This document shows, in pieces, positions 1 to 28,092 of a DNA stretch of 30,186 nt. A program made the translations under genes and the position numbers. Origin of the DNA: a virus; IMG/VR virus record IMGVR_UViG_3300028772_000056, positions 1-30,186 of that record. One strand, 5' to 3'. Positions within the stretch are counted from its first letter, which is position 1. Each line of letters opens with the position of its first letter. The notes under the pieces are model-generated. The model did not search any database, was not told the origin of the DNA, and worked only from the letters and a program-made list of their open reading frames with translations.

Positions 1-1856
1 TCATTGATCAAATTATTTATACTTTCGTTTAATGAGTTTCCGATTTTTTGTACTTTGCTTCCTAGTCTTGTGATTTTAGATTCATGTACTTCAACTGGTT
101 CTTCTTCAGTGTCCAATTGTATAACAACCATACCATTTTGTGGATTAGTTGCAAGTACTTCACCTGTTTTGTCACCTACTGCAATTGTTTCTCCTGGTGT
201 TGGTAATCCGCCTTCTTCAGTTTCACCTTGAACTGGTTCTTCAACTGTTGGTTCAATTGGTTCTTCTGTTGGTAGTTCACCTTCTACAGCTGGTTGAGCT
301 TCAACTTCTTCTCCTTCTCCTTCTACTTCTTCACCTTGTACTGGTCGAGTAATAGGCTGATCTGTCGTTGGTTGAGCAGGTTCTGCTGCTGGACCTTCCA
401 TTGTAGGAGCTTGATCTTCATAATATCCATTAATGTCAATATCTTTAGTATTTTCATCTTCTGTTATGAATTCAAAATTTTCAAGTACTTTACCAGTTTT
501 TAATTTTTCTGTAAGAAGTTTTGATTTTTCGATAGTTTTATCCAAACTTTCAGCGATGTAATTTGTATAAGCCATAGAATCATCAAGATTTTCAGCTATA
601 TATTCTGAATAAGATATGTTGTTATCTACGTGTTCAGCAATGTATTCTGAATATGCAATATTATTGTCAAGATTTTCAGCTACATATTCTGAATAAACAA
701 TAGAATTATCTAGATTTTCAGCTAAATATTCTGAATAAACAATAGAACTGTCAAGATTTTCAGCAATGTATTCTGAATAGTCAATAGATTTGTCAAGATT
801 TTCAGCAATGTATTCTGAATATTTGATATTTTTATCTACATGTTCGGCTATATATTCTGAGAAATCAATATTTTTATCTAAAGTTTCTGCAATATATTTA
901 CCATAATCAATAGATTTGTCAAGATTTTCAGCTAAATATTCTGAATAGTTTCCTATTTTTTCAATGTTTTCAGCAAGATAATCATTGTGTTTAATTAAAT
1001 CTGTTGTTGTTTTTTTCAATTGAACATTTTCATTTACAACAAATTGCATACTTTCTGCAAGATAATCTAAATATTTTACCATTTTTGATTGTTGTTCATG
1101 TAATTGTTCGTAATAATCAAGTACACTTTCTAATTTGGCAGGATCAAAATCGACATTTTTACCTTTAACCATGTCATTAATTTTCAATTTAAAGGTTTCA
1201 ATTTCTTCTGTTAAATAATTAGAATACTCTGTCATTTGTTTTTTTGTTACAAAGTCTTCGTTCATTTGGAATAATTCATTTATTTTTGACTCGTCGGATA
1301 AATCATATATCCTAAAGTAATCTTTGTCACTAAATCCATAACTTTCATTTAATGATTTGACTTCCATTCTAGCTGAACTGAAGCCTGGATCTGCAACTGC
1401 ATCATATGTAAATAATTTTTTAACTGTAACAGTACCATCTGATTCGGTGATGCCCGCGGCTCTGGATGATACGAAAATAGGACAACCATCATCAACAAGT
1501 GCTTTCGCTTCTTTACCCCAATGGGTATTTAACAATCTAATTTCTCCTTTTACAGAATTTGATGCTTTATCAAATACAGCATTTTCGATTGTGTGCGAAA
1601 CTCTTCCTAATGAAGTGTCAAAAACATCTGGGTGATCAAATTCACCATAAACTACTCCTAATTGATTTTTACGAGCTAAAAGTTCGTCAAGGTGAGGTAA
1701 GAATTTTTCAGCAGTATAAATTCTATCATTTCTATTCTTGATATTAAATTCTGTGAAAGTTCCACCTAAAATGTAATTACCTTTCTTTTGATCAGTTTGT
1801 TCATTTATTGGCTTTAGACCGTCCATACAATGTTCTACGATAAGAACTGGTTTCAT
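1..1856 (-). CDS. 21: Prohead protease fused to repeat-containing scaffold (T4 gp21-like), partial
   Basis: The gene starts with ATG at 1856 and is still open at the window edge, giving 618 residues. Residues 1-190 look like a phage prohead serine protease: YGEFDHP (His75), SLGRVSHTIE and VSSRAAG (Ser130/Ser131) match the family's GELDHP and S(S)RxxG blocks. T4 gp21 matures the prohead by cutting scaffold and internal proteins after Glu in (L/I)xE. Residues 190-290 are helical, 290-443 are eleven 14-residue repeats, 470-550 are acidic and Pro/Glu-rich, and 551-605 resemble a small SH3-like barrel. T4 gp21 is only about 212 residues and its scaffold gp22 is separate, so this appears to be a protease-scaffold fusion. 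It follows the portal, as in the T4 order 20-67-68-21. The protease call is firm; the scaffold role is inferred. Confidence 0.85.
   Translation of the reverse strand, partial: MKPVLIVEHCMDGLKPINEQTDQKKGNYILGGTFTEFNIKNRNDRIYTAEKFLPHLDELLARKNQLGVVYGEFDHPDVFDTSLGRVSHTIENAVFDKASNSVKGEIRLLNTHWGKEAKALVDDGCPIFVSSRAAGITESDGTVTVKKLFTYDAVADPGFSSARMEVKSLNESYGFSDKDYFRIYDLSDESKINELFQMNEDFVTKKQMTEYSNYLTEEIETFKLKINDMVKGKNVDFDPAKLESVLDYYEQLHEQQSKMVKYLDYLAESMQFVVNENVQLKKTTTDLIKHNDYLAENIEKIGNYSEYLAENLDKSIDYGKYIAETLDKNIDFSEYIAEHVDKNIKYSEYIAENLDKSIDYSEYIAENLDSSIVYSEYLAENLDNSIVYSEYVAENLDNNIAYSEYIAEHVDNNISYSEYIAENLDDSMAYTNYIAESLDKTIEKSKLLTEKLKTGKVLENFEFITEDENTKDIDINGYYEDQAPTMEGPAAEPAQPTTDQPITRPVQGEEVEGEGEEVEAQPAVEGELPTEEPIEPTVEEPVQGETEEGGLPTPGETIAVGDKTGEVLATNPQNGMVVIQLDTEEEPVEVHESKITRLGSKVQKIGNSLNESINNLIN
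528..989 (-). repeat. Eleven tandem 42-bp coding repeats in the scaffold part of the protease gene
   Basis: Read on the minus strand, these are eleven in-frame units of 14 residues with consensus YSEYIAENLDxxIx. They run from HNDYLAEN to YIAESLDKTIE with no insertion or deletion. Fourteen residues equals two heptads, with hydrophobic residues spaced for a continuous helix. Nearly every unit contains IAE, LAE or VAE, which fits the gp21 cleavage rule. Synonymous codon differences between units point to selection on the protein and not to a recent expansion. Confidence 0.9.
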
Positions 1857-1981: not shown

Positions 1982-2734
1982 TTAAATTGAATCTATATAT
2001 TCATCATCTTCTGATTTTTTAGATTTGCTTGATGATGATTTTTTTAAATCTTCTTTGTCTGATTCATCCTTTCTAGATTCTTTATCTGAATCAGCAGAAA
2101 AATATGTTTCAGTTTTTACTATTTTAGTAATAACTGAACTATTTTTTTTTGTGATATCTTTATTTGATTCATCTTTTTTGTTGTCAATCACATCTGTTGA
2201 TACTTTATTTAAATCATTCTTTATCTCTGATTCTTTAGTCGTTTTTACTTTCTCTACATTTTTATCTTCAACTTTTTCTACTTTTGCTTCTTCTATATTA
2301 GAAGTCGTTTCAGTTGTGGGTTTTAATTTTTCTTGATTAGGTTCTTTAATGATTCCTAACGAAATTTCACGTTTTTTTAAATCTTCAATTGATTTTTTTC
2401 TTTTTTCTAAATTGTCTGATAATGTTTTGCTGTGACTATTTTTTAGATTATCTGTTATTTTATTATTGTCCTCTTTATTTTTTTCTACACTTATTTTTAT
2501 TTTTTCTAATTCTTTTGATAAATCATCTTCATACTTAGATTCCTCAGTTATCATATTTATCATACCATCCACTTTTTCTATATATGAATGATCTGGAATT
2601 TTTAATTTTTCAATTTTTCCATCTATTTTAATCTCATAGTATCCATTATTTTCTCCTATAAAATCTTCTACCTTATCTATATCAGTTATTTTATTATAAT
2701 ATAGTATCGCTATTATTCCTCTATCTACTGGCAT
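1982..2734 (-). CDS. Charged coiled-coil protein in the T4 gp67/gp68 position
   Basis: This 250-residue protein is not recognised by sequence. Residues 1-60 look globular (IIAILYYNKITDIDKVEDF), residues 60-130 are a Lys/Glu-rich helix likely to form a coiled coil, and the rest is low-complexity and strongly charged with a Ser/Lys-rich stretch (KKSSSSKSKK) near the end. It lies between portal and protease genes. In T4 that position holds the small prohead core proteins gp67 and gp68, so a role in the prohead core is plausible but rests only on position and composition. A terminator follows it, and an AATATATAA element lies 20 bases before the start. Confidence 0.75.
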   Translation of the reverse strand: MPVDRGIIAILYYNKITDIDKVEDFIGENNGYYEIKIDGKIEKLKIPDHSYIEKVDGMINMITEESKYEDDLSKELEKIKISVEKNKEDNNKITDNLKNSHSKTLSDNLEKRKKSIEDLKKREISLGIIKEPNQEKLKPTTETTSNIEEAKVEKVEDKNVEKVKTTKESEIKNDLNKVSTDVIDNKKDESNKDITKKNSSVITKIVKTETYFSADSDKESRKDESDKEDLKKSSSSKSKKSEDDEYIDSI

Positions 2735-2877: not shown

Positions 2878-4647
2878 TTAAAATTCTGCTTCACCTTGTG
2901 ATTGTCCGCCTCCTTGTGCTTGACCACCTCCTTGTGCTTGTCCGCCTCCTTGCGCTTGACCACCTCCTTGTGCTTGTCCGCCTCCTTGCGCTTGTCCGCC
3001 TCCTTGTGCTTGACCACCTCCGCCTTCTCCACCAGGAAATCCTGGTTCTCCGCCTGGAAATCCTCCCATGTCACCTCCGCCTCCGCCAGATGCTCCAGCT
3101 CCTTCTCCTGCTGTACCACTCATCATTTTGCATTTATTGTTTGATTCAATATCTTTATCAGTAAATTTCATAATATTTCTAACTATCCATTCAATTGATA
3201 AATATGGTTTTCCCTCTCCATCTTGTAGATTGCTGGATAATGTTGATGCGATTTCTGCTCTTTTTGCTAAATTGTTCAAATATTTCCATTCTTCAAATAA
3301 ATCATTAGAATTGAAATTTAATTTAATGTAACTTTCAAATATTCTATCACTGCTCAATTCTGGAAATTCTAATACCATCTGTATTTTTAATGGCTTAACT
3401 AATACCTCTTTGAATAATGTTCTTAATCTACTAACAAAATTTTTGAATCTTATTTCATCCATTGTAATTGATGCTGTATCATCATAAAAATTACCACCAC
3501 CCTGGTCTTCATCTAATCTAGAAAATGGCATTTTTGATGCTCTTTTAAATGATTTATAAAACCATTGTAATACTATATCTTCATTTAATTCTGCTTGTTG
3601 CGGTTGTAAAATTTCCATTTCTGGAGTACCTAATTCTGATGTTGGAAACCAATAATCTTTAGAATGAGGAATTTTAGTTGAGCCATTTATATATGGTATT
3701 CCTGTTGTATCATCCCATTCTATATCTTCATGATATTCACTCATCAACTGACTAATTTGCTGTTCAGCTTGTTGTCTAGTTAATCCATTTACAGGAATTA
3801 CAAATTTTTTATATATTGATGCCTGATTTAAATTATACATCAATTTTGTGAATTCTAACAACTTAAGTTGATTATAAGGTTTAATCAATCCTTCTACATA
3901 ACTTGTTTCATCATAGTCTAAATTATTTGAATATGAAATATAAATAATATTAGCATCTAATAAAACTCTTCTTAATTGTGGAACATCTGGATTTTGAATC
4001 CAAACAACAGTTCCAGTACCTGGTTCTGCAGCTACAATTAAAGTTAAAGGATCCAATAAATTTAATTCAATTATATTTTTTTGATCATCGTCATAAACAA
4101 TTTCAAATGATAAAAATCCATCAATTAAAAATGTTTTCATGTAATTCCAAGCTGTTAATCCATCATTAAAGTTAAATGCATTATAAATTTTTTTAAAATT
4201 TTCCTGATATTTTACTCTTATTGATTGATCATAAGTATCTGGTAAATCAGAAACAGTGCAAAAATAATTATCATCATCATAATTTATTGCTTCTTCTGCA
4301 ATTCTAGTTACGTAATCTTTAATTTCTTCCTTTATTGCGTACTGATGTAATATTTTTCTTTTGTCTAAATATCTACGATCTAAATAAGCAATAGATTTTT
4401 TTTCTAATATTTTAGAAATTATTTTTTTTGTGAATAAATCGTACATGTTTGTACCAGGTTCATAAAGCAAATTACTGGTATCTTGAAATGCGCCAATAGC
4501 CTGACTGTTTCTAACAACCATTTCTTGCTCGTCCATTCCAAAATTACTTAATTTTCTTAATATTTTATTTCCAAAGCTTTTTCCTACATTACCTCTACCA
4601 AAATCATACATGGAATTTGGCTGATTATATCTGTTATATGTTGCCAC
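2878..4647 (-). CDS. 20: Portal protein (T4 gp20-like)
   Basis: The portal forms the dodecameric ring at one capsid vertex for DNA packaging and tail attachment. At 589 residues it is somewhat longer than T4 gp20 (524). The block KMPFSRLDEDQGGGNFYDDTASITMDEIRFKNFV, cited here only by its key parts (PFSRLDEDQ, ITMDEIRFKNF, then LRTLFKEVLVKPLKIQM), is characteristic of gp20. The start is GTG at 4647 (MATYNRYNQ), with no in-frame ATG close by. The C-terminal 70 residues are Gly-rich and end in seven six-residue GGGQ(A/S)Q repeats not found in T4. An AATATATAA element lies 21 bases upstream. Confidence 0.95.
   Translation of the reverse strand: MATYNRYNQPNSMYDFGRGNVGKSFGNKILRKLSNFGMDEQEMVVRNSQAIGAFQDTSNLLYEPGTNMYDLFTKKIISKILEKKSIAYLDRRYLDKRKILHQYAIKEEIKDYVTRIAEEAINYDDDNYFCTVSDLPDTYDQSIRVKYQENFKKIYNAFNFNDGLTAWNYMKTFLIDGFLSFEIVYDDDQKNIIELNLLDPLTLIVAAEPGTGTVVWIQNPDVPQLRRVLLDANIIYISYSNNLDYDETSYVEGLIKPYNQLKLLEFTKLMYNLNQASIYKKFVIPVNGLTRQQAEQQISQLMSEYHEDIEWDDTTGIPYINGSTKIPHSKDYWFPTSELGTPEMEILQPQQAELNEDIVLQWFYKSFKRASKMPFSRLDEDQGGGNFYDDTASITMDEIRFKNFVSRLRTLFKEVLVKPLKIQMVLEFPELSSDRIFESYIKLNFNSNDLFEEWKYLNNLAKRAEIASTLSSNLQDGEGKPYLSIEWIVRNIMKFTDKDIESNNKCKMMSGTAGEGAGASGGGGGDMGGFPGGEPGFPGGEGGGGQAQGGGQAQGGGQAQGGGQAQGGGQAQGGGQAQGGGQSQGEAEF
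2896..3021 (-). repeat. Seven 18-bp repeats encoding GGGQAQ at the portal C-terminus
   Basis: Six GGGQAQ units and one final GGGQSQ unit are encoded in tandem on the minus strand, before the last residues GEAEF. The units differ by synonymous changes (CCG/CCA for Gly, TGC/CGC-type third-base swaps), so they have been kept as protein. The block is much richer in GC than the surrounding DNA because of the Gly codons. Confidence 0.9.
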
Positions 4648-6928: not shown

Positions 6929-7201
6929 TTATCGTTCATTATCAAACTTGAAATTATCATTAGGTTGTTTATGATAATCATATCCACTATCTGCAATTCT
7001 TTGTAAATGTTCAATTACGCCCTGTGCTTGATCTATTCCAAATTGAGATAGATATGATAAAAAATCCTCAAAAATTCTTTCTGACATTTTTTTTGCTATT
7101 TTTCCTTTTTCTGTATCATAAAATGCAATAGGCTGACCTTCATCATCTGTATAATACACCGGTTTTTTTTGGTAATTTTCAAATTTCTTTAATTTTTCCA
7201 T
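6929..7201 (-). CDS. Small protein with MEKLKKFE start (possible packaged protein)
   Basis: This 90-residue protein begins MEKLKKFENYQKK, one of the recurrent N-terminal peptides in this window that resemble the T4 capsid-targeting sequence. The same first nine residues, MEKLKKFE and an aromatic position shortly after, begin the gene at 25602. The rest is a mixed helical domain (KKMSERIFEDFLSYLSQFGID) ending in FKFDNER. It follows the 428-residue gene by 14 bases and precedes a terminator. I do not recognise a function; packaging into the head is inferred from the leader peptide. Confidence 0.75.
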   Translation of the reverse strand: MEKLKKFENYQKKPVYYTDDEGQPIAFYDTEKGKIAKKMSERIFEDFLSYLSQFGIDQAQGVIEHLQRIADSGYDYHKQPNDNFKFDNER

Positions 7202-8661: not shown

Positions 8662-8874
8662 ATGAAATTTATAAAGACATATGAGAATTATTCAAGCTTG
8701 AACGTATCTCTTGATGGTAAATCTAAAATGAGAATAAAAATAGGAGATGATATATTAGGTGGTAGATTTAAAAATAAAAAACTAAAAGTGAAATCTATAA
8801 ATATAAATCAGAAAGGTGATATAACAATTAATAATAAACCTTTTATAAAAATGAGAAAAACAAAAAAATCATAA
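8662..8874 (+). CDS. Small protein with MKFIKTYENY start and SH3-like domain
   Basis: The product has 70 residues. Residues 1-12 (MKFIKTYENYSS) match the recurring capsid-targeting-like leader. Residues 22-65 (MRIKIGDDILGGRFKNKKL and VKSININ) have the pattern IGDxxxxGRFKNKKxKVKxI...NxKPxIKMR. That pattern recurs in small conserved proteins of T4-like phages and probably forms a small beta barrel. It is a single-gene transcript: a promoter candidate lies upstream and a palindromic terminator overlaps the stop codon. Function is not known. Confidence 0.75.
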   Translation: MKFIKTYENYSSLNVSLDGKSKMRIKIGDDILGGRFKNKKLKVKSININQKGDITINNKPFIKMRKTKKS

Positions 8875-11302: not shown

Positions 11303-11317
11303 AAAATATAAATTTAA

Positions 11318-12283: not shown

Positions 12284-13258
12284 ATGATTAAAATTTCATG
12301 TGTAATAGATGGAAATTATATGCTATATAGATCTGTATTTATATTACATAAATTAAAAACACTTTATGGAGATTTGGAAACACTTTTATTAAATGACTTT
12401 AACAATTTAGCAAATTCATATCATTTCAATAAAATATATTTTTTATCTGATAGTAAAAGAAGTTGGAGAAAAAATGTTTATCCTGAATATAAAGGCAAAA
12501 GAAAAAAAGATCTTGAAATTGATTGGGAATTTGTATTTGATACATTTGATAAATTTAAAGAGAGTATAAAAAATAGACATAATTGTCTTTTATATCAAAT
12601 AGATCCATTTGAGGGTGATGATTTGGTAGCCCATATTGTTACAGAAGGTAATAAAAAAGGAATATCAAGTTTAATGGTATCTAATGATGGTGACCTTCAT
12701 CAATTATTAAAATTTAGTACTTCTGATAATTATATAAACATGATGTATAATCATAAATTTCAAGATGAGAGATTATATGTTCCAATTAATTATAATATAT
12801 TTATGAAAAATCTTGAAGATACTACAGAAGGAGATATTTTTGATCTTAATGATGATCTTGATTTTATAAATTATTTTGATAAAATAACAAGTAAAGCTAA
12901 AATATCACCAGTAAATAAAGAAGAATCATATTTTAAAAAGGTGGTAGCAGGAGATGGAGGTGATAACATATTAAGTGTGGTTAAATTTAAAGAAGAGTCA
13001 AGAGGCATAGGTGATGCTGGATCAAAAACAGTTTATGCGATGTTTAAACAAAAATATCCTGATGATATTGATTTTGATTCTGATGAATTTGTAGAAAATC
13101 TTTGTGATATTCTTTATATTTATAGAAAAAACAAAGAAGTTGATTTTAAAGAAAGAGTAACTGAAAATATAATTTTTTCAAGAAAATTAACTAGATTGAG
13201 TAGTAATTATTTACCAGATGGATTTGAACAAATATTACTTGATAATATCAAAATTTAA
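12284..13258 (+). CDS. rnh: RNase H / 5'-3' exonuclease of the FEN family (T4 Rnh-like)
   Basis: The enzyme removes RNA primers from Okazaki fragments. The 324-residue protein (T4: 305) has VIDGNYMLYR (Asp9), FLSDSKRSWRKNVYPEYKG (residues 53-71), FEGDDLVA (Glu110, Asp112, Asp113) and VSNDGDLHQL (Asp135, Asp137). These are the acidic metal ligands of the FEN active site. VAGDGGDNI and RGIGDAGSKTV form the helix-three-turn-helix DNA-binding region. The gene has its own upstream promoter candidate and downstream terminator. Confidence 0.93.
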   Translation: MIKISCVIDGNYMLYRSVFILHKLKTLYGDLETLLLNDFNNLANSYHFNKIYFLSDSKRSWRKNVYPEYKGKRKKDLEIDWEFVFDTFDKFKESIKNRHNCLLYQIDPFEGDDLVAHIVTEGNKKGISSLMVSNDGDLHQLLKFSTSDNYINMMYNHKFQDERLYVPINYNIFMKNLEDTTEGDIFDLNDDLDFINYFDKITSKAKISPVNKEESYFKKVVAGDGGDNILSVVKFKEESRGIGDAGSKTVYAMFKQKYPDDIDFDSDEFVENLCDILYIYRKNKEVDFKERVTENIIFSRKLTRLSSNYLPDGFEQILLDNIKI

Positions 13259-13270
13259 TTTTTTTTTTAT

Positions 13271-13298
13271 AAAACCTTGAATGTAAATTCAAGGTTTT
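13271..13298 (+). terminator. Terminator after the RNase H gene
   Basis: AAAACCTTGAAT and ATTCAAGGTTTT form a 12-bp stem around GTAA, followed by TTATTTTAT. An alternative TTG start for the next gene at 13277 lies inside this hairpin, which argues against that start. Confidence 0.85.
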
Positions 13299-13336: not shown

Positions 13337-13906
13337 ATGAAAGTTAAAAAGTTCAATGAAAGTTTTAGTATGGAAGTAGATGATGATTTTAAAATGATGA
13401 AGAAGTCATCAAAACTTACTAATGTAGTTAATGATTATATAATTGATTTCAATGAAAATACAGATAGTGGAATTATTAATTGGATTTCTGAAATGGCAGG
13501 TAAAAATGTTACTAAATTATCAGAATATAAAAATTTGTATACTGAACAAAAATTAATTGATTTTGGCTCTGATAAAAATTTAAAATCATTAATTCAATAT
13601 GGTGAAGTAAAATTAGAATGTTCTGATATTATTAATGAAATTGAATCTCTGGAAAGTAAAATAAAAAAATATGTGAATAAAAAACAGAAAATATTTACTG
13701 ATGCATCAAGTCAATTAATGTATAAATTTCAAGAAGACTTATTTCTAAAAGATTTTAATGGATTGTACAATCTTTTCATAATAGATTCTGTTGAAGATCA
13801 ACTTGATCCATTATCAGATATTCATCCTGATATAGTTACTAAATATGGAGACAAAATAATTGAAATTGTTAAACCTATAATATCATCAAAAAAATTTAAT
13901 ATATGA
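13337..13906 (+). CDS. MKVKKFNES-tagged protein, possible packaged protein
   Basis: I place the start at ATG 13337 (MKVKKFNESFSME), because an upstream TTG start would begin in the terminator. The 189-residue product opens with a capsid-targeting-like peptide containing FNE followed by Ser, a possible gp21 cut. The body is helical with SDIINEIESLESKIKKYVNK as a coiled coil. It ends KKFNI. The stop overlaps the next start (ATGA), and the DNA around the junction, 13888-13910, recurs exactly at 14208-14230. No known fold is recognised. Confidence 0.75.
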   Translation: MKVKKFNESFSMEVDDDFKMMKKSSKLTNVVNDYIIDFNENTDSGIINWISEMAGKNVTKLSEYKNLYTEQKLIDFGSDKNLKSLIQYGEVKLECSDIINEIESLESKIKKYVNKKQKIFTDASSQLMYKFQEDLFLKDFNGLYNLFIIDSVEDQLDPLSDIHPDIVTKYGDKIIEIVKPIISSKKFNI

Positions 13907-14226
13907 AAAAATTTGATGTTTTTGTTAATGAATCAAAAAAATCTTTCAATCAAAAAAGAGAAGAATTGGAAGAATATAAAAAAGGTTCTATTGTAGTATT
14001 TAAATCCGTGTATAAATCTGGTGTAGTACAAAAAAATATTTATGAAATAAGAGTAGGAGAAATAATTGGTTATAATTTTGATTATTCAGTATATATGTAT
14101 TTGATAGATGATATTATTGATAACGGACAATGGATGGTTCCAAAATCAAGAGTTAAAAGATTAGCAACTGATAGAGAAATTGAAAATTATAAAATGAAAG
14201 AGGAAGCAAAAAAATTTAATATATGA
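13903..14226 (+). CDS. MKKFDVFVNES-tagged protein, possible packaged protein
   Basis: The 107-residue product begins MKKFDVFVNESKKS. VNE followed by Ser fits the (L/I/V)xE rule for gp21 cleavage. Residues 27-85 are beta-rich (KGSIVVFKSVYKSGVVQ, IYEIRVGEIIGYN, QWMVPKSRVKRL) and look like a small SH3-type barrel. It ends KKFNI and overlaps both neighbours by four bases. T4 internal proteins have this plan of cleaved leader plus small basic domain, but no specific homologue is recognised. Confidence 0.75.
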   Translation: MKKFDVFVNESKKSFNQKREELEEYKKGSIVVFKSVYKSGVVQKNIYEIRVGEIIGYNFDYSVYMYLIDDIIDNGQWMVPKSRVKRLATDREIENYKMKEEAKKFNI

Positions 14227-14528
14227 AAAATTTTAAAGACTTTTTAGAAGGAACAGGTAAATATGTAAATGTAGATTATAAAATTATTATTAGAGATTTA
14301 AAAAATAATCCTACTACTTTGATTACAGATTTTAAAATAGTTAAATCTGAAGATAAAAAATTAGAAATAAAAGCAAGAGGTTATACAAAATCTACATTAA
14401 ATGGCTATACTGAAGGTAAGCCTAAAACTGCATGGACAGAATTTGATGATTTTCAAGATAATAAGACAAGAATTGTTTGGAATAAAAATTTTGAAAATGG
14501 AATTAAAAAAATAAAAGTATATTATTAA
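14223..14528 (+). CDS. MKNFKDFLEG-tagged protein, possible packaged protein
   Basis: The 101-residue product starts MKNFKDFLEGTGKY. The remainder is a basic, beta-rich domain (YKIIIRDLKNNPTTLITDFKI, cited by its ends, then KLEIKARGY and KTRIVWNKNF). It lacks the KFNI ending of its two upstream neighbours and ends IKKIKVYY. It overlaps the preceding gene by four bases at the repeated junction sequence. Function is not known. Confidence 0.7.
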   Translation: MKNFKDFLEGTGKYVNVDYKIIIRDLKNNPTTLITDFKIVKSEDKKLEIKARGYTKSTLNGYTEGKPKTAWTEFDDFQDNKTRIVWNKNFENGIKKIKVYY

Positions 14529-14535
14529 TATATAA
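14527..14535 (+). promoter_or_regulatory. Candidate late promoter before the Thr-rich protein gene
   Basis: AATATATAA begins inside the preceding stop codon and ends 23 bases before the ATG at 14559. It could add transcription to the last gene of the cluster. Confidence 0.4.
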
Positions 14536-14558
14536 TAACATAAAAAAAATTAAAAAAT

Positions 14559-15119
14559 ATGAAAAAATTAAAAGATTTTGTTGAATTTGTTAATGAAGCC
14601 TCAATACATGGAGGAACTAAAGAAGGTGGAGATAATTATCAATCTCCTGAAGAAAATAAAAAAATAGCAACAAATATCATTAATGCTATTCATCCAGCAT
14701 TAAACAATTCAGGATTTAAGGTCAATGTGGATATGAGTGGAAATGATCAAAACCCAAATTTGAATAAAATATTAGAATCAACAGATAAATTAGCACTTAT
14801 AACTACTAATTTTTCTATTGGTTGGGATGGTAAAAATAGAGCAGGCGGAATTCATGTTTATGTAAATAAAAATAATTTAGATTCATTGCGTGAAACTATA
14901 AAAAATATTGATCATCCATTTGTTAGAATGGAACAAAGAGCATGGATGATAAATACTACTGCAACTGTACCTTGCCTTATAATTTATGATGATGGAGTTG
15001 AAAATACTGTATCAACAACAGAAACCACAACAGTTCAGCCAACAACTACTACACAACAAACAACAACAGTTGCTCCAACAACTACTACACAACAAACCAC
15101 AGTTGCTCCAACTGTATAA
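14559..15119 (+). CDS. MKKLKDFVEFVNEAS-tagged protein with Thr-rich tail
   Basis: The 186-residue product begins MKKLKDFVEFVNEASIHGG. VNE followed by Ala is the clearest predicted gp21 site in this cluster. Residues 25-148 form an alpha/beta domain (IATNIINAIHPALNN, ALITTNFSIGWDG, GGIHVYVNK) that I do not recognise. Residues 152-186 are almost only Thr, Gln, Pro, Val and Ala, in two copies of PTTTTQQTT(T)VAP. Such a tail is probably unstructured. The gene ends at a terminator shared with the convergent adenylyltransferase gene. Confidence 0.75.
   Translation: MKKLKDFVEFVNEASIHGGTKEGGDNYQSPEENKKIATNIINAIHPALNNSGFKVNVDMSGNDQNPNLNKILESTDKLALITTNFSIGWDGKNRAGGIHVYVNKNNLDSLRETIKNIDHPFVRMEQRAWMINTTATVPCLIIYDDGVENTVSTTETTTVQPTTTTQQTTTVAPTTTTQQTTVAPTV
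15037..15116 (+). repeat. Direct repeat encoding the Thr-rich tail
   Basis: A 34-base unit with the core CCAACAACTACTACACAACA occurs twice, in frame, at the end of the tagged gene. The copies differ by a deleted codon and a C/A change. ACA/ACT repeats of this sort can change length by slippage. Confidence 0.7.
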
Positions 15120-18825: not shown

Positions 18826-18974
18826 ATATCTTTTTCTATTAAATATTCAATATATTCAGATTTGCTAATTTTTATTTCTTCTAAATATCTATCTAAACTT
18901 TTATTAATTTCTATGTCTAATGTGATACCAATTGATTTTTTGTTTGGTTTTATTTTAAATTTGTTTAATGACAT
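18810..18974 (-). CDS. Ribbon-helix-helix protein A (54 residues)
   Basis: This short gene runs from ATG at 18974 to TAA at 18810. The product starts MSLNKFKIKPNKK, then SIGITLDIEINKSLDRYLEE (the strand and first helix), then KISKSEYIEYLIEKDIKKAD (the turn and second helix). Alternating residues in the strand, followed by two helices separated by a short Ser-containing turn, are the Arc/MetJ/CopG pattern. Such dimers usually repress their own and nearby promoters. A 14-bp inverted repeat begins two bases upstream of its start and is a candidate operator. Confidence 0.78.
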   Translation of the reverse strand: MSLNKFKIKPNKKSIGITLDIEINKSLDRYLEEIKISKSEYIEYLIEKDIKKAD

Positions 18975-18976
18975 AT

Positions 18977-19006
18977 TAGATTTTTATTATTTATAATAAA
19001 AATCTA
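18977..19006. promoter_or_regulatory. Inverted repeat between divergent RHH genes, candidate operator
   Basis: TAGATTTTTATTAT and ATAATAAAAATCTA form a perfect 14-bp inverted repeat with a two-base spacer. It begins two bases before the start codon of RHH gene A. Paired sites of this kind are typical for dimeric RHH repressors. It might also fold as an RNA hairpin at the start of the minus-strand message. The following intergenic part to 19087 has no gene. Confidence 0.55.
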
Positions 19007-19087
19007 TTTTTTTGTTTGAAATAATTCATATAATATTAAAACATAACCTTATTTTTTTTATATATACCCTTAAAGAATAAATAAAAT

Positions 19088-19252
19088 ATGAAAAAAATAA
19101 TAACGAAAGAGAAATTGTCTGTATGCCTAAGTGAGGAAATCAGAGAATATTTGAACAATAATATAGTTAATACATCAAAATATATTGAGTATCTAATATA
19201 CTCAGATCTTATTTTACATAATTCTATTGAGAAAAAAAAATATTATGACTAA
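19088..19252 (+). CDS. Ribbon-helix-helix protein B (54 residues)
   Basis: The gene runs from ATG 19088 to TAA 19252. The product starts MKKIITKEKLSVCLSEEIRE, followed by YLNNNIVNTSKYIEYLIYSD and a basic Lys/Tyr end. KLSVCLSEEIREYL is the strand and first helix; TSKYIEYLI is the second helix. It has the same length as RHH protein A and shares (S/T)(E/K)YIEYLI with it, suggesting an old duplication. Its stop overlaps the first base of the endonuclease start (TAATG). Confidence 0.78.
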   Translation: MKKIITKEKLSVCLSEEIREYLNNNIVNTSKYIEYLIYSDLILHNSIEKKKYYD

Positions 19253-21124: not shown

Positions 21125-21583
21125 ATGAGAAAAGAATATGAAATATTTCTAGTGGATCAAATAACAATTTATCCGGATATTGAAAAAAAGTATATTGAAT
21201 ATTATCTAAATAAGATAACATATAAGAATGATGTCGAATATTGTGATATTAATGATGATGTTGTTTTGCAATGCTTAGCTCCAATAATATGCTGCATAGT
21301 AAGAAAATTAGTAAAACGAGATAATCCTTTTATAAATGATAATTTTGATTTGCTCATTAGAATGATCAATGTTGAAAAAATAACAAATAAATTTGTTAAA
21401 TATAGTTCAGAATTTATTCCAATTGCCGAAGTTTTTTTATCAAATCTTGATGCTCAAGCAGAACTAACATTATTATTTTGTAATAATTATGTTTGGGGAT
21501 TAGTTAATAGAATAGAAAAAGGAGATAAGAATATAGTTGAAAGAATGATAAAATTAAAATTATTAAATGAAGAAATATTTTAG
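21125..21583 (+). CDS. Unrecognised helical protein (152 residues)
   Basis: I choose ATG 21125 (MRKEYEIFLVDQ), three bases past the methylase stop, over an ATG at 21110 inside that gene. The product is helical, with VVLQCLAPIICCIVRKLVKR and LDLLIRMINVEKITNK-like segments, and LTLLFCNNYVWGLVN near the end. The hydrophobic parts contain charges and are unlikely to cross a membrane. It overlaps the next gene by 17 bases. No function is seen. Confidence 0.65.
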   Translation: MRKEYEIFLVDQITIYPDIEKKYIEYYLNKITYKNDVEYCDINDDVVLQCLAPIICCIVRKLVKRDNPFINDNFDLLIRMINVEKITNKFVKYSSEFIPIAEVFLSNLDAQAELTLLFCNNYVWGLVNRIEKGDKNIVERMIKLKLLNEEIF

Positions 21584-24925: not shown

Positions 24926-25204
24926 TTAATGAAAATCATTAAATTTTTTGACGTGATGTATAGATTTTTCAGGAAATTTAGGATCAACAATAACTTCTCC
25001 TCCTAATCTCATTTTTGCATTATACTCATCTGTCTTGCTTGGAGTTTCAATTATTATATCACCAGGTATTTGATTTAATTTACCTACTTTTGGCATATCA
25101 GAAACTTCTAATTCAGTTTCATCTATATTAATTTTAACGAAGCTATCTTCTAAATCTCCTACTGATTCAACAGTAAATGTATCAAAATTTTTTGTTCTTT
25201 TCAT
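24926..25204 (-). CDS. MKRTKNFDTFTVES-tagged protein, possible packaged protein
   Basis: The 92-residue product starts MKRTKNFDTFTVESVGD. TVE followed by Ser is a possible protease cut. The body is beta-rich (FVKINIDETELEVSDM, GDIIIETPSK, GGEVIVDPKF), and the end, HHVKKFNDFH, repeats the start-like KKFNDF. It is the last gene of the tagged cluster. I do not recognise the domain. Confidence 0.72.
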   Translation of the reverse strand: MKRTKNFDTFTVESVGDLEDSFVKINIDETELEVSDMPKVGKLNQIPGDIIIETPSKTDEYNAKMRLGGEVIVDPKFPEKSIHHVKKFNDFH

Positions 25205-25218
25205 TTTATTATTTGTTT

Positions 25219-25602
25219 TTATAAATTGTATTTGTGTGATGAACTACCTAATTTAGAAATATTAAAAGATGTTTCTGATTTTTCATTTTCTTTCCATTTA
25301 TTATTAAGATATTTATATATTTTCTTATTTAATAAATAAGAGCAATCCACATTTATTTCATTAATTTTAATTTTGTAACCAGGAATACCAAAAAACATAT
25401 CATCTCTGACTTCAACTGTACGGTCATCTAATTTATATCCAATAAATCCTTCATCTTTAAATGGGCTTCCAAATAAATTTTTTGAATCATAATTATCTTT
25501 AATTTCATTAAAAATACTTTTTATTTCTTCGTCAAAATCTGAAGTAAATATACCGCCTACCATGGTATCTTTAAAAGATTCAAACTTTTTTAATTTTTCC
25601 AT
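25219..25602 (-). CDS. MEKLKKFESF-tagged protein, possible packaged protein
   Basis: The product has 127 residues, starts MEKLKKFESFKDTMVGGIF and ends HKYNL, a variant of the KFN(I/L) ending. The first eight residues equal those of the 90-residue gene at 7201. Residues 20-100 are alpha/beta (FDEEIKSIFNEIKDNYDSK, FIGYKLDDRTVEVRDDMF). It starts three bases past the upstream gene. No function is recognised. Confidence 0.72.
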   Translation of the reverse strand: MEKLKKFESFKDTMVGGIFTSDFDEEIKSIFNEIKDNYDSKNLFGSPFKDEGFIGYKLDDRTVEVRDDMFFGIPGYKIKINEINVDCSYLLNKKIYKYLNNKWKENEKSETSFNISKLGSSSHKYNL

Positions 25603-25605
25603 TTG

Positions 25606-25920
25606 TTATTTGTTTTTATCTTCTTTTTCTACTTCTTTTTTACCATTTTTTAATTCTTCTGCATATTCTTCATCTATTTCTTTCAATAATGATTGAAATT
25701 CGCCGATATGGGTTTTTTCCTCTCTGGCTACATCTAGTAAAACATCTTTGATTTTTCTATCGTTAGCTTCGTCAGCCATTTGTTCGTATAAATTGATAGT
25801 ATCTAACTCAGCTAAAATTGCTGCTCTTAGAATCTGTTTATCTGATGATGTATTTTTTGAACCTGGTATAGATGACAATGTTTCATTTAAAAAATCGTCA
25901 AACCTTAAAGTTTTTTTCAT
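25606..25920 (-). CDS. Capsid-tagged ferritin-like protein (EncFtn-like)
   Basis: The 104-residue product starts MKKTLRFDDFLNETLSS. LNE followed by Thr fits gp21 cleavage. Residues 30-85 are two helices with ILAELDTINLYEQMADEAND and LLDVAREEKTHIGEFQSLL. Encapsulated ferritin (EncFtn, for example from Rhodospirillum rubrum) uses Glu32, Tyr39, Glu62 and His65. Here Glu38, Tyr45, Glu68 and His71 keep the same spacings (7, 30 and 33). EncFtn works as a two-helix half-ferritin whose dimer oxidises iron in an encapsulin shell. The C-terminal 15 residues are Lys/Glu-rich. Iron binding is inferred; a rubrerythrin-like fold is the alternative. Confidence 0.78.
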   Translation of the reverse strand: MKKTLRFDDFLNETLSSIPGSKNTSSDKQILRAAILAELDTINLYEQMADEANDRKIKDVLLDVAREEKTHIGEFQSLLKEIDEEYAEELKNGKKEVEKEDKNK

Positions 25921-25922
25921 TT

Positions 25923-26273
25923 TTATTTATCTTTTTTGTCTTTCTTATCGTCTTTATCTTTTTTATCTTTCTTTTCTTCTTTTTTATCATCTTTCTTATC
26001 GTCTTTATCATCGTCTTCTTTACCTTCTTCTTGTCCGCATTCACTTACAATTTTATAGTAATTATCCATTGATAATTTACCTTCTTTTTTTGAAATTTTA
26101 AGTGCAATTTCAGTTGCTTTATGCAAATCCATATCAGTTTTAGCATCTTCTTTTGCAAATTCTAGCATACGAATAAACAATGGTACATCCATTGTAATTG
26201 TATCAACAACATCTTCATTGTCATGATGTTTCTCAGTTATGAAATCATCAAAATTTAACGTTTTTTTATCCAT
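25923..26273 (-). CDS. MDKKTLNFDDFITEKHH-tagged protein with Lys/Asp tail
   Basis: The 116-residue product begins MDKKTLNFDDFITEKHHDNE; ITE is a possible cleavage site. Residues 24-75 (ITMDVPLFIRMLEFAKEDA, DMDLHKATEIALKISKKEG, LSMDNYYKIV) form a helical domain that I recall from conserved proteins of other large T4-like phages without known function. Residues 78-116 are a low-complexity Lys/Asp tail that could interact with packaged DNA. It starts nine bases past the preceding gene. Confidence 0.75.
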   Translation of the reverse strand: MDKKTLNFDDFITEKHHDNEDVVDTITMDVPLFIRMLEFAKEDAKTDMDLHKATEIALKISKKEGKLSMDNYYKIVSECGQEEGKEDDDKDDKKDDKKEEKKDKKDKDDKKDKKDK

Positions 26274-26282
26274 TGGGTTTAA

Positions 26283-26906
26283 TTATTTTTTTGAGAATGA
26301 TTCAAAATTTTTCATTCTTGATATATTAAATTTTATACTTTCTTTTTTTGGTTGAATAGGCTGTGAAACTTCTGATTGAGAACTATGAACTTTAACTTTA
26401 TCAGTTGTTTTAGGCTGATCTTGTGTATTAGGCTGAGCTTGCGCTGTTGCTACTTGTCGTGTGTTCTGTGCTAGATCTTCTTGTTTTTTTACTTGATATT
26501 CATCACCAGTATATTCTATTACATTTTTTGAAATTTCAACATCAATAAAATTTCCACCTCTTATTTCTCCTCCTTCTATTTTTCCTTTGAAAAAATTTCC
26601 TTTGTATATAATTCCTGATTTAAAAATTCCATTTCTCCATACTCCATTGTACCAAACACCATTTTGCCAATTTCCATATCTCCATTCTCCATCTCTCCAT
26701 ACACCAAAATACCAATCACCGTTGTACCAAATGCCAGCATTCCAAACTAATGTATCTTGAAAAATTTCAAGTCTAGCATTTTTTATTTCTGCATTAACCA
26801 TCCAATTAAATTTATTATCAATTAGAATCTCGTCAATTTTCCACTGTTCAGTGAAAATTTCACCATTAAACTTCAATTCAGAATACCTAAGCTCTTTACT
26901 TACCAT
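26283..26906 (-). CDS. Protein with WxNGxW pentapeptide solenoid and terminal tag remnant
   Basis: Residues 52-115 of this 207-residue protein are about thirteen five-residue units of the type (W/F/I)xxGx: VWNAGIWYNGDWYFGVW, then YGNWQNGVWYNGVWRNG, IFKSGIIYKGNFFKG. This suggests a tight beta-solenoid like MORN or pentapeptide proteins. Residues 130-190 are Gln/Thr/Pro-rich and unfolded. The end reads KFNISRMKNFESFSKK, which is the KFNI ending and MKNFESF start of the neighbouring gene family joined in one frame. A surface or head-interior fibre role is possible but not established. Confidence 0.75.
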   Translation of the reverse strand: MVSKELRYSELKFNGEIFTEQWKIDEILIDNKFNWMVNAEIKNARLEIFQDTLVWNAGIWYNGDWYFGVWRDGEWRYGNWQNGVWYNGVWRNGIFKSGIIYKGNFFKGKIEGGEIRGGNFIDVEISKNVIEYTGDEYQVKKQEDLAQNTRQVATAQAQPNTQDQPKTTDKVKVHSSQSEVSQPIQPKKESIKFNISRMKNFESFSKK

Positions 26907-26941
26907 TTTTTAATATTTTTTCTATGTCGTATATATAAAAA

Positions 26942-27376
26942 TTATATATTGAATTTATCAGAATCAACAAAAAACTTAAACTCTGGTATTGTTTCTAATT
27001 GATTTTTATAATTTATTACAAATCTAGCTTTCCAATATTCCATATTTTCTTTTTTGAAATCTTCACGAATTTTATTGTATAGTTTTTCACAAGTATCTTT
27101 ATGATTATTATAAAACTCAACTGGTGTCATAAAATTAATTTTATTCAATTCTTCTATTGTAATAGATAAACTATCGCCTACAGGATCAATAATATTTCCA
27201 TTTTTGTCAACATCAAAACATTCAAATTCTACATAAACCATAAAATTATCTTTGAAATCTATACGGTTACACAAAGCAATATACATATCAATATTTTCAT
27301 CTTCTGAATTAAAAAGACAAAACTTACCGACATAATCAGATTCATTATTATTCTCAAATTTTTTTATATATTTCAT
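26942..27376 (-). CDS. MKYIKKFENNNES-tagged protein, possible packaged protein
   Basis: The 144-residue product starts MKYIKKFENNNESDYVGKF and ends SDKFNI. The middle is beta-rich (GKFCLFNSEDENIDMYIALC and FMVYVEFECFDVDKNG), followed by a helical part with TCEKLYNKIREDFKKENM. The codon for Phe in KFNI is TTC here and TTT in its neighbours, and no gene start overlaps this end. It overlaps the upstream gene by four bases. Confidence 0.72.
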   Translation of the reverse strand: MKYIKKFENNNESDYVGKFCLFNSEDENIDMYIALCNRIDFKDNFMVYVEFECFDVDKNGNIIDPVGDSLSITIEELNKINFMTPVEFYNNHKDTCEKLYNKIREDFKKENMEYWKARFVINYKNQLETIPEFKFFVDSDKFNI

Positions 27377-27693
27377 AAATTAAATTTTTCTGTATTTTTT
27401 ATTATTTCATATTCTTCTAAACTCTGAGCAGTTGAAAAATTCTTAGAAACTTCTGAAGGATTGAAAAACAATTTGTGTTCATTATCATCAATAAATGATA
27501 TCATAAATGAACTTATATTTTTTATATCGTATAATTTACCAATTGTTAAGTCATATAAATCTTCTAATTCTCCTATGTGATTATCAATACACAACATTTT
27601 TTTAAGATTTCTATGTAATCTTCCATAAGGGTCACAATATATTTTTTCACGATTGTTATATACTCCTTCTTCAAACTTTTTTAAATATTTCAT
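27373..27693 (-). CDS. MKYLKKFEEG-tagged protein, possible packaged protein
   Basis: The 106-residue product starts MKYLKKFEEGVYNNREKI and ends NTEKFNL. It contains KMLCIDNHIGELEDLYDLTIG, cited by KMLCIDNHIGE and YDLTIGKLYDI, followed by the hydrophobic SSFMISFIDD. The stop overlaps the next start with the sequence AAATTTAATTTATGAAAT. The fold might be a small SH3-like barrel. No function is recognised. Confidence 0.72.
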   Translation of the reverse strand: MKYLKKFEEGVYNNREKIYCDPYGRLHRNLKKMLCIDNHIGELEDLYDLTIGKLYDIKNISSFMISFIDDNEHKLFFNPSEVSKNFSTAQSLEEYEIIKNTEKFNL

Positions 27694-27696
27694 TAA

Positions 27697-28092
27697 CTAT
27701 AAATTAAATTTTCTTGCATTTATAACGTTGTCAAACTCTCCTGTTTTCTCCATTGTTTCGAACATATCAATCAAATCATTAATTAAATTTTTATTAAATA
27801 TAAATTTCAAAGTTCCAAATGCAAGTACAAAATTTCTATATTCTATTTTTCTATTATCCAAATTTAATTTTATGAAATTTATCAAATCTTCATTTTTTTT
27901 ATAATTTTCAAAATTTATCATAATAACATCTTTCTTTGCTTCAATTTCAACTGTTATATTTAATGATGATAAAATTGTAAATAAATTATACATTTTTGTT
28001 TCTCCATAATAACGAGTTAGAAATTTTCTTATTGCTATTGTTAAAGGTTTTTTGAAATTTTTTATTGATTCAAACGTTTTTAAATATTTCAT
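27697..28092 (-). CDS. MKYLKTFESI-tagged protein, possible packaged protein
   Basis: The 131-residue product starts MKYLKTFESIKNFKKPLTIAI and ends NARKFNL. The body is helical and basic (KFLTRYYGETKMYNLFTILS), then DVIMINFENYKKNEDLINFI. It is first in the minus-strand tagged cluster, divergent from the 28162 gene. Its leader MKYLK(K/T)FE matches the downstream gene at 27693 closely, suggesting a common origin of the ends though the bodies differ. Confidence 0.72.
   Translation of the reverse strand: MKYLKTFESIKNFKKPLTIAIRKFLTRYYGETKMYNLFTILSSLNITVEIEAKKDVIMINFENYKKNEDLINFIKLNLDNRKIEYRNFVLAFGTLKFIFNKNLINDLIDMFETMEKTGEFDNVINARKFNL

Follow-up and report, generated by a model that had tools for sequence, protein, structure and literature searches.

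Four consecutive genes of a Mahaphage-type megaphage with probable T4-type capsid-targeting N-termini

The internal proteins Ip1-3 of bacteriophage T4 are injected and act against GmrSD nucleases, a different one being blocked by each (PMC12373910). IPIII has a capsid-targeting sequence that reads MKTYQEFIAE in the T4 genome, and its dissection with amber suppressors assigned positions 4 and 7 to targeting and positions 8 and 10 to processing (PMC9026906). In the giant phages phiKZ and SPN3US, many head ejection proteins are packed in the head and cut after Glu by a prohead protease; the phiKZ cleavage motif is S/A-x-E, and no comparable short shared N-terminal tag is described there for either phage (PMC9026906). 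A search of the full-text literature, with subscription papers outside its scope, returned work on T4, P1, phiKZ and SPN3US, and none of the titles and abstracts reports a tag of this kind for megaphages. The locus analysed here resembles T4 IPI-IPIII (MKTYQEFIAE/A; a slash marks a known or predicted cut throughout) in its N-terminal 8-13 residues, with an aromatic pair three apart and, in genes 2 and 4, a hydrophobic-x-Glu sequence, and in the presence of a gp21-type protease, unrelated small bodies and a variable gene content. The likeness to phiKZ and SPN3US would lie in the number of proteins packed in the head of a giant phage and cut after Glu.

The stretch of DNA analysed (hereafter the window; 30,186 nucleotides) comes from IMG/VR and represents a 30-kb piece of a Mahaphage-type megaphage, with a portal and protease near those of genomes of 634-735 kb. 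The portal has 63% (62.8%) identity to that of the 735-kb phage LR756501 and 48% to those of the 634-642 kb genomes, and the protease has 66% identity in the comparison with the 634-735 kb group. These genomes are the Mahaphages of Al-Shayeb et al., for which Bacteroidetes were predicted as hosts (PMC7162821). The head module and the cluster of interest are laid out as follows.

3..1856, minus strand: T4 gp21-like prohead protease fused to a scaffold (phrog_207, E 1.2e-31; PF20034, PF03420)
1982..2734, minus strand: head-core-like protein between portal and protease, so called from its position only; family matches were not found in profile searches of the Pfam and PHROGs type
2878..4647, minus strand: T4 gp20-type portal protein (PF07230, E 5.6e-63)
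12284-13258, plus strand: T4-rnh/5'-3' exonuclease-like gene (PF02739)
13271..13298, plus strand: intrinsic terminator with a 12-bp stem and T tail, after the exonuclease gene and before the cluster
13337..13906, plus strand: gene 1, 189 aa, start MKVKKFNESFS; tag MKVKKFNE/S at 13337-13360; C-terminal KFNI at 13892-13903
13903..14226, plus strand: gene 2, 107 aa, start MKKFDVFVNESKK; tag MKKFDVFVNE/S at 13903-13932; C-terminal KFNI at 14212-14223
14223..14528, plus strand: gene 3, 101 aa, start MKNFKDFLEGTG; tag MKNFKDFLE/G at 14223-14249, then a beta-rich body
14559..15119, plus strand: gene 4, 186 aa, start MKKLKDFVEFVNEASI; tag MKKLKDFVEFVNE/A at 14559-14597; Thr-rich C-terminus

All four N-termini reported in the preliminary description (MKVKKFNES, MKKFDVFVNES, MKNFKDFLEG and MKKLKDFVEFVNEAS) are present on the plus strand at 13337-15119, in consecutive genes that have good coding scores and were called by a simple home-made procedure; genes 1/2 and genes 2/3 overlap by 4 bases. 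The location of the cluster between replication genes and a kinase operon was also borne out, with the exonuclease-like gene on one side and an RfaE-like nucleotidyltransferase and PNK-like kinase (minus strand) on the other, and the large tagged cluster (24926-28092) does lie on the opposite, minus, strand. VNE cleavage sites had been proposed for the whole group, and these are found in genes 2 and 4 only (VNE followed by S or A), whereas gene 1 has FNE-S and gene 3 FLE-G. The suggestion that the cluster has promoter candidates of its own fared worse: a consensus scan gave 16 sigma70-like sites against 19.9 in shuffles, and promoter scanning did not set tagged or structural genes apart from other genes. 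An AT-rich box (TATATAA-like) was found upstream of head and tagged genes, and also of about half of the others (7/13, 20/40, 73/160). The cluster probably needs its own promoter, because the strong terminator at 13271-13298 separates it from the exonuclease gene; four terminators were found against 0.3 expected.

Tags were divided into class A, [FY]xx[FY][ILV]xE, and class B, a shorter [LIFYV]xx[FY]E near the N-terminus, and a strict motif was defined as [FY]xx[FY][ILMV]xE starting at residues 3-11. Gene 2 (MKKFDVFVNE) has F4, F7, V8 and E10, and hence all four functional positions of T4 IPIII. Gene 4 has L4, F7, F10, V11 and E13, of which V11 and E13 are the processing residues, and this format is the dominant one in a 462-kb relative (MKYIKEYEEFLLEA-like). 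F4 and F7 of gene 3 match the T4 targeting positions, with a processing half (LE) that is not of the strict form, and gene 1 has a shifted variant, with V3/F6 rather than aromatics at 4/7 and FNE as its processing half. Orthologues of the genes that lack a strict processing half show INE/N, IIE/Q and ILE/N. In the capsid-targeting reading, class A carries both a targeting and a cleavage half, and class B, as in gene 1, keeps the targeting half with the cleavage half altered.

The same motif is found in the scaffold. The protease-scaffold reading frame (3-1856) contains tandem 14-aa repeats of the tag motif at about 549-947, with more sites up to 1226; the repeat is YSEYIAENLDxxID, within which the motif [FY]xx[FY][ILMV]xE lies, and there are 12 copies of [YF]xx[YF][ILV]xE, mostly at exact 14-residue spacing (YSEYIAENLDKSID...), compared with 14 in LR756501. 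The reading frame likely has its own cleavage sites, PINE/Q and SLNE/S. Partial extra copies of the gp21-like protease domain were seen in the complete relative W01 at 11314, 240978 and 555792, and stand-alone small proteins with scaffold-like repeats (NYTSYIAENLDKNLKYAEYIAD...) at a locus designated L032 (about 1.2 kb beyond the point where the exonuclease match stops), in the complete relative W03 at 460435 and in W01 at 716346. A further W01 candidate at 21458 (1691 aa, with seven motif matches about 60 aa apart) was set aside as the domain repeat of a long protein.

The strict motif is N-terminal in 4/52 window genes compared with 0.11 in shuffles (Poisson about 6e-6). Among three complete relatives, in which 1-3 are expected, it was found in 51/951 in W01, where the test was not blind as the motif had been framed after the window and a looser first W01 list, and, with the motif fixed for these and the remaining genomes, in 22/894 in W03 and 22/626 in W04. 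The counts were 9/157 in G001, 9/130 in G002 and 3/100 in G003, which belong with the window to an AT-rich lineage, and 2/408 in Lak-C1, which is about chance; backgrounds were 0.1-2.3 for shuffled N-termini and 0-3 for internal slots of equal size. T4, as positive control, gave 3/246, namely IPII, IPIII and gp61.1. The last of these (T4 18966-19130; L200) is a 54-aa protein that starts MKTFKEFIKED and matches the capsid-tag motif, and it is possibly a further internal protein of T4. The class B motif is present in 10/52 window genes against about 1.4 per internal slot, and it is similarly over-represented in W03, W01 and G001 (119, 75 and 26, where a slot holds about 13, 14 and 3), with no enrichment in T4 or Lak. 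Repeat scaffold and tags occur together in W01, G002 and the window, the repeat of W04 is degenerate, and Lak is without either; the tag is thus not general to megaphages, as it is nearly absent in Lak.

Several properties that the motif definition does not force point in the same direction. Position P2, which is free in the motif, is Asn in 32/56 N-terminal matches of W01 compared with 3/55 internal ones (p 1e-9), and the preference has the same direction in W03 (p 2e-4) and W04 (p 6e-3). The major capsid proteins of W01, W03 and G003 have MNE/N or INE/N where T4 gp23 is cut, a position that was assigned by eye. When orthologues were taken as reciprocal best matches with the first 20 residues masked, W01 and W03 were found to share tag status, with 6/153 pairs tagged in both against about 1.2 expected (p 2.5e-4) and class A to class B swaps among the pairs; the more distant W01/W04 and W03/W04 pairs had 0 shared tags.

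The description of these genes as capsid-tagged is well supported at the level of sequence, by the T4-type protease and portal in the window, the scaffold repeats that contain the tag motif, the match to the T4 residues, the capsid MNE/N and INE/N sites and the enrichment of the tag in relatives. That the four N-termini are T4-type capsid-targeting sequences is the best explanation, and we consider it probable. In the mechanism proposed, a protein would dock on the core of the scaffold while the prohead assembles, by way of its first 8-13 residues and the pair of aromatic or large hydrophobic residues that stand three apart in them; the scaffold is itself a tandem array of this motif (YSEYIAE). 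Then the gp21-like protease would cut after Glu ([ILVF]xE before S, A or N) and free the mature internal protein, which would be trapped in the head and delivered with the DNA into the next host. Docking, cutting, packaging, injection and early action are all predicted from the genes.

Elsewhere in the window, the two single tagged genes that had been noted at 6929 and 8662 were both found to be of class B, and the minus-strand cluster contains further tagged genes.

6929..7201, minus strand: single tagged gene, MEKLKKFENYQKK, class B
8662..8874, plus strand: single tagged gene, MKFIKTYENYSS, class B; the orthologue in G001 and a tagged protein of W03 are reciprocal best matches
24926..25602, minus strand: two genes with N-terminal tags (MKRTKNFDTFTVE/S; MEKLKKFESF)
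25606..25920, minus strand: ferritin-like protein, tag MKKTLRFDDFLNE/T, class A
25923..26273, minus strand: class A tagged protein, MDKKTLNFDDFITE/K
26283..26906, minus strand: gene with the C-terminal sequence KFNI-SR-MKNFESFSKK
26942..28092, minus strand: three class B genes in a row (MKYIKKFEN, MKYLKKFEE, MKYLKTFES), all ending KFN[IL]

A second peptide, K[FY]N[LIV], is found at the C-terminus of tagged small proteins of the AT-rich lineage (the window, G001, G002 and G003), with window sites that include 25219-28092. It ends 6/14 tagged proteins of the window against 0/38 untagged ones, and 14/34 against 3/96 in G002. As it is found before terminators and with synonymous codons, it is a C-terminal motif at the level of the protein, and its explanation as a mere 4-base overlap with the next ATG was ruled out on the same grounds. 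The gene at 26283..26906 has apparently lost its stop codon and been read into the remnant of a following tag. In LR756501 (L033-L069), DPYGEExW occurs 98 times in 84/951 proteins, in many cases 2 residues short of the C-terminus or more than once in one protein; it is enriched on tagged proteins of that phage (37/146 against 47/805, p 3e-11) and absent from all other genomes checked. A C-terminal LGI in W03 was considered as a tag partner and showed no link to tags (p 0.94). Rows of class B small proteins that share an IGDYV-type, beta-barrel-like start (IGDYVxxx...IGxI) were also seen, in arrays of G001 and G002 and at L032 and L180, and gene 2 of the window may belong to this group.

Searches of Pfam, PHROGs and PADLOC did not point to a function for any of the four cluster bodies, and PADLOC gave 0 matches for ten tagged window proteins. 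The AlphaFold model of gene 3 (pLDDT 73) has a beta-rich body from residue 13 and a tag (residues 1-11) of pLDDT <50, and a Foldseek search with it gave nothing below E 0.1; the model of gene 4 (pLDDT 47) was too poor to use. The tagged bodies of relatives include PPK2 (in both W01 and W03), a NUDIX hydrolase, a T4-Rnl1-type RNA ligase, a GH108 muramidase and a DUF2201 metallopeptidase. In W03 (448257-449573; L133:8257-9573) a tagged 2H phosphoesterase, with a weak Acb1 match and two HLT motifs, is joined to an RNase_T exonuclease, which makes it a candidate injected anti-CBASS protein. The ferritin-like protein of the window (25606-25920) has as best PDB matches 5n5e and 2e0z, the Pyrococcus virus-like particle/encapsulin-associated ferritin (E 6e-21), and its tag is kept in the loci L187, L189 and L192; searches of six complete relatives and of deposited phages did not recover the gene. 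The protein is thus homologous to ferritins that an HK97-fold shell holds as cargo. Loading in encapsulin systems depends on a peptide of their own, whereas the window ferritin carries the phage N-terminal tag, and this tag might put an iron-handling cargo in the phage head. For the four cluster bodies, the most likely roles are early ones, against host defence or in host takeover, as the T4 Ip1-3 proteins block GmrSD nucleases and the relatives carry tagged enzymes.

The tags could instead tie proteins to the scaffold as ordinary head-core or structural parts, degraded or kept in the head, rather than as effectors delivered to the host. This would agree with the identity of tag and scaffold-repeat motif, with the presence of tagged genes in the head operon (W01 62965 and 65144; G002 93065, between portal and protease) and with class B tags that have no clear cleavage site. 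However, the 56 class A tags of W01 stand on 44 unrelated body families (four class A proteins of the window fall in four), which, with PPK2 among them and NUDIX and RNA ligase in relatives, would be unexpected for a core; presence and absence also vary between close relatives, and T4 provides a precedent for injection (PMC12373910). We regard a purely structural role as unlikely.

It can also be asked whether the shared N-termini are an intracellular address of another kind, for example to a phage nucleus or replication compartment. Many tagged proteins of relatives are indeed nucleic-acid or nucleotide enzymes, and for some of them (RNA ligase, NUDIX) ordinary enzyme work inside the cell would be plausible too. 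A non-capsid address is nonetheless quite improbable, given that the clamp loader, exonuclease, kinase, dUTPase and Dam-like proteins of the window are untagged (by eye), that the motif is that of the scaffold repeat and of the residues mapped in T4, and that it is absent in Lak, where the scaffold has no repeats.

The preliminary description had proposed repeated gain of such cassettes, and this holds for part of the cluster. The contig G002 has an exonuclease of 94% identity and cleanly lacks genes 1 and 2; the break falls at ATATGAAAAA, where the tag starts, and the terminator hairpin is kept. The small protein in slot 2 differs from relative to relative. Two foreign genes lie at the locus in the G001 lineage, in which the frame of gene 4 is lost just after an intact tag, the tag DNA being kept. 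By contrast, genes 1 and 3 are tagged and syntenic in five loci (L017, L030, L032, L180 and L181) in which the exonuclease is only about 70% identical, and there they remain between or beside the exonuclease and the nucleotidyltransferase, whereas gene 4 is confined to the nearest relatives. Cassettes therefore turn over, yet genes 1 and 3, half of the cluster, have long been resident. A tblastn search with the four bodies against stretches of the complete relatives gave 0 matches, and gene 4 against six whole records gave a single weak match (E 0.05).

Among orthologues the body is retained and the tag is rewritten. Gene 3 is present in 16 IMG/VR loci with one conserved body and with the tags MKNFKDFLEG, MKYIKKFNEG, MKTYNQFIEAS, MKNFSEFIIEQ, MKNYEQFILEE, MKKYLEFILEN and MITKFNIFEN. 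Gene 1 orthologues (MKIKKFNE/S, MKIDRFNE/S, MKIERFNNINE/N, MKIKKFNQINE/N) are conserved at both ends with a body identity of 30-43%, and in those of gene 4 the residues L4, F7, F10, V11 and E13 are invariant, positions 8, 9, 12 and 14 vary and the linker after the tag is variable. The clean break at the tag start where genes 1 and 2 are missing, the tag remnant fused to 26283-26906 and the variable slot 2 might together be taken to mean that the shared tag start lets selfish or recombination-prone cassettes spread, the tag being mainly a hitchhiking recombination handle; this is highly unlikely, as the tag residues known from T4 genetics mostly stay across gene 1, 3 and 4 orthologues while the rest drifts. 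At the motif positions the choice of codons for Phe, Tyr and Glu is that of the genome as a whole (TTT for F, 0.66 against 0.67), with Ile, for which ATA is over-used, as the exception, and because these codons mostly match genome usage it is the peptide and not the DNA that is conserved. A DNA-level signal, such as an AT-rich translation-initiation region or a recombination junction around ATGAAA, could draw on that ATA excess, on gene overlaps at AAATTTAATATATGAAAAA and on the deletion breakpoint of genes 1 and 2 at this junction, but is very improbable in view of the codon usage, the extension of the motif to residues 10-13, the other genes with similar start regions and no motif, and the fact that P2 Asn and P1 Glu are amino-acid features.

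In the capsid-targeting reading, what is new here compared with T4 is that the same logic is applied far more widely and with a scaffold made of repeats. T4 has few tags, whereas the megaphages have tens per genome over many loci, some on large enzymes; their scaffold is a tandem motif array fused to the protease, and they have a shortened class B tag and private second peptides. We put forward, as a tentative extension that may well prove too broad, a megaphage lineage with general address-coded delivery, in which the tandem-motif scaffold would load of the order of a hundred tagged proteins (effectors, enzymes and even a ferritin) per capsid, each lineage adding a private second peptide, K[FY]N[LIV] at the C-terminus here and DPYGEExW in the 735-kb phage.

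In the largest known phages a role has yet to be assigned to the majority of genes. With an N-terminal label that can be read, dozens of 'hypothetical' genes in each genome would become candidate injected proteins, so that the label may reveal which proteins megaphages inject into their hosts. The T4 capsid-targeting idea would be extended from a few genes to a genome-wide system, and the repeat scaffold could explain how so many cargoes are docked. Candidates for early anti-defence cargo would include the Acb1-like 2H protein, the RNA ligase and the NUDIX hydrolase, and a ferritin may ride in the phage head.
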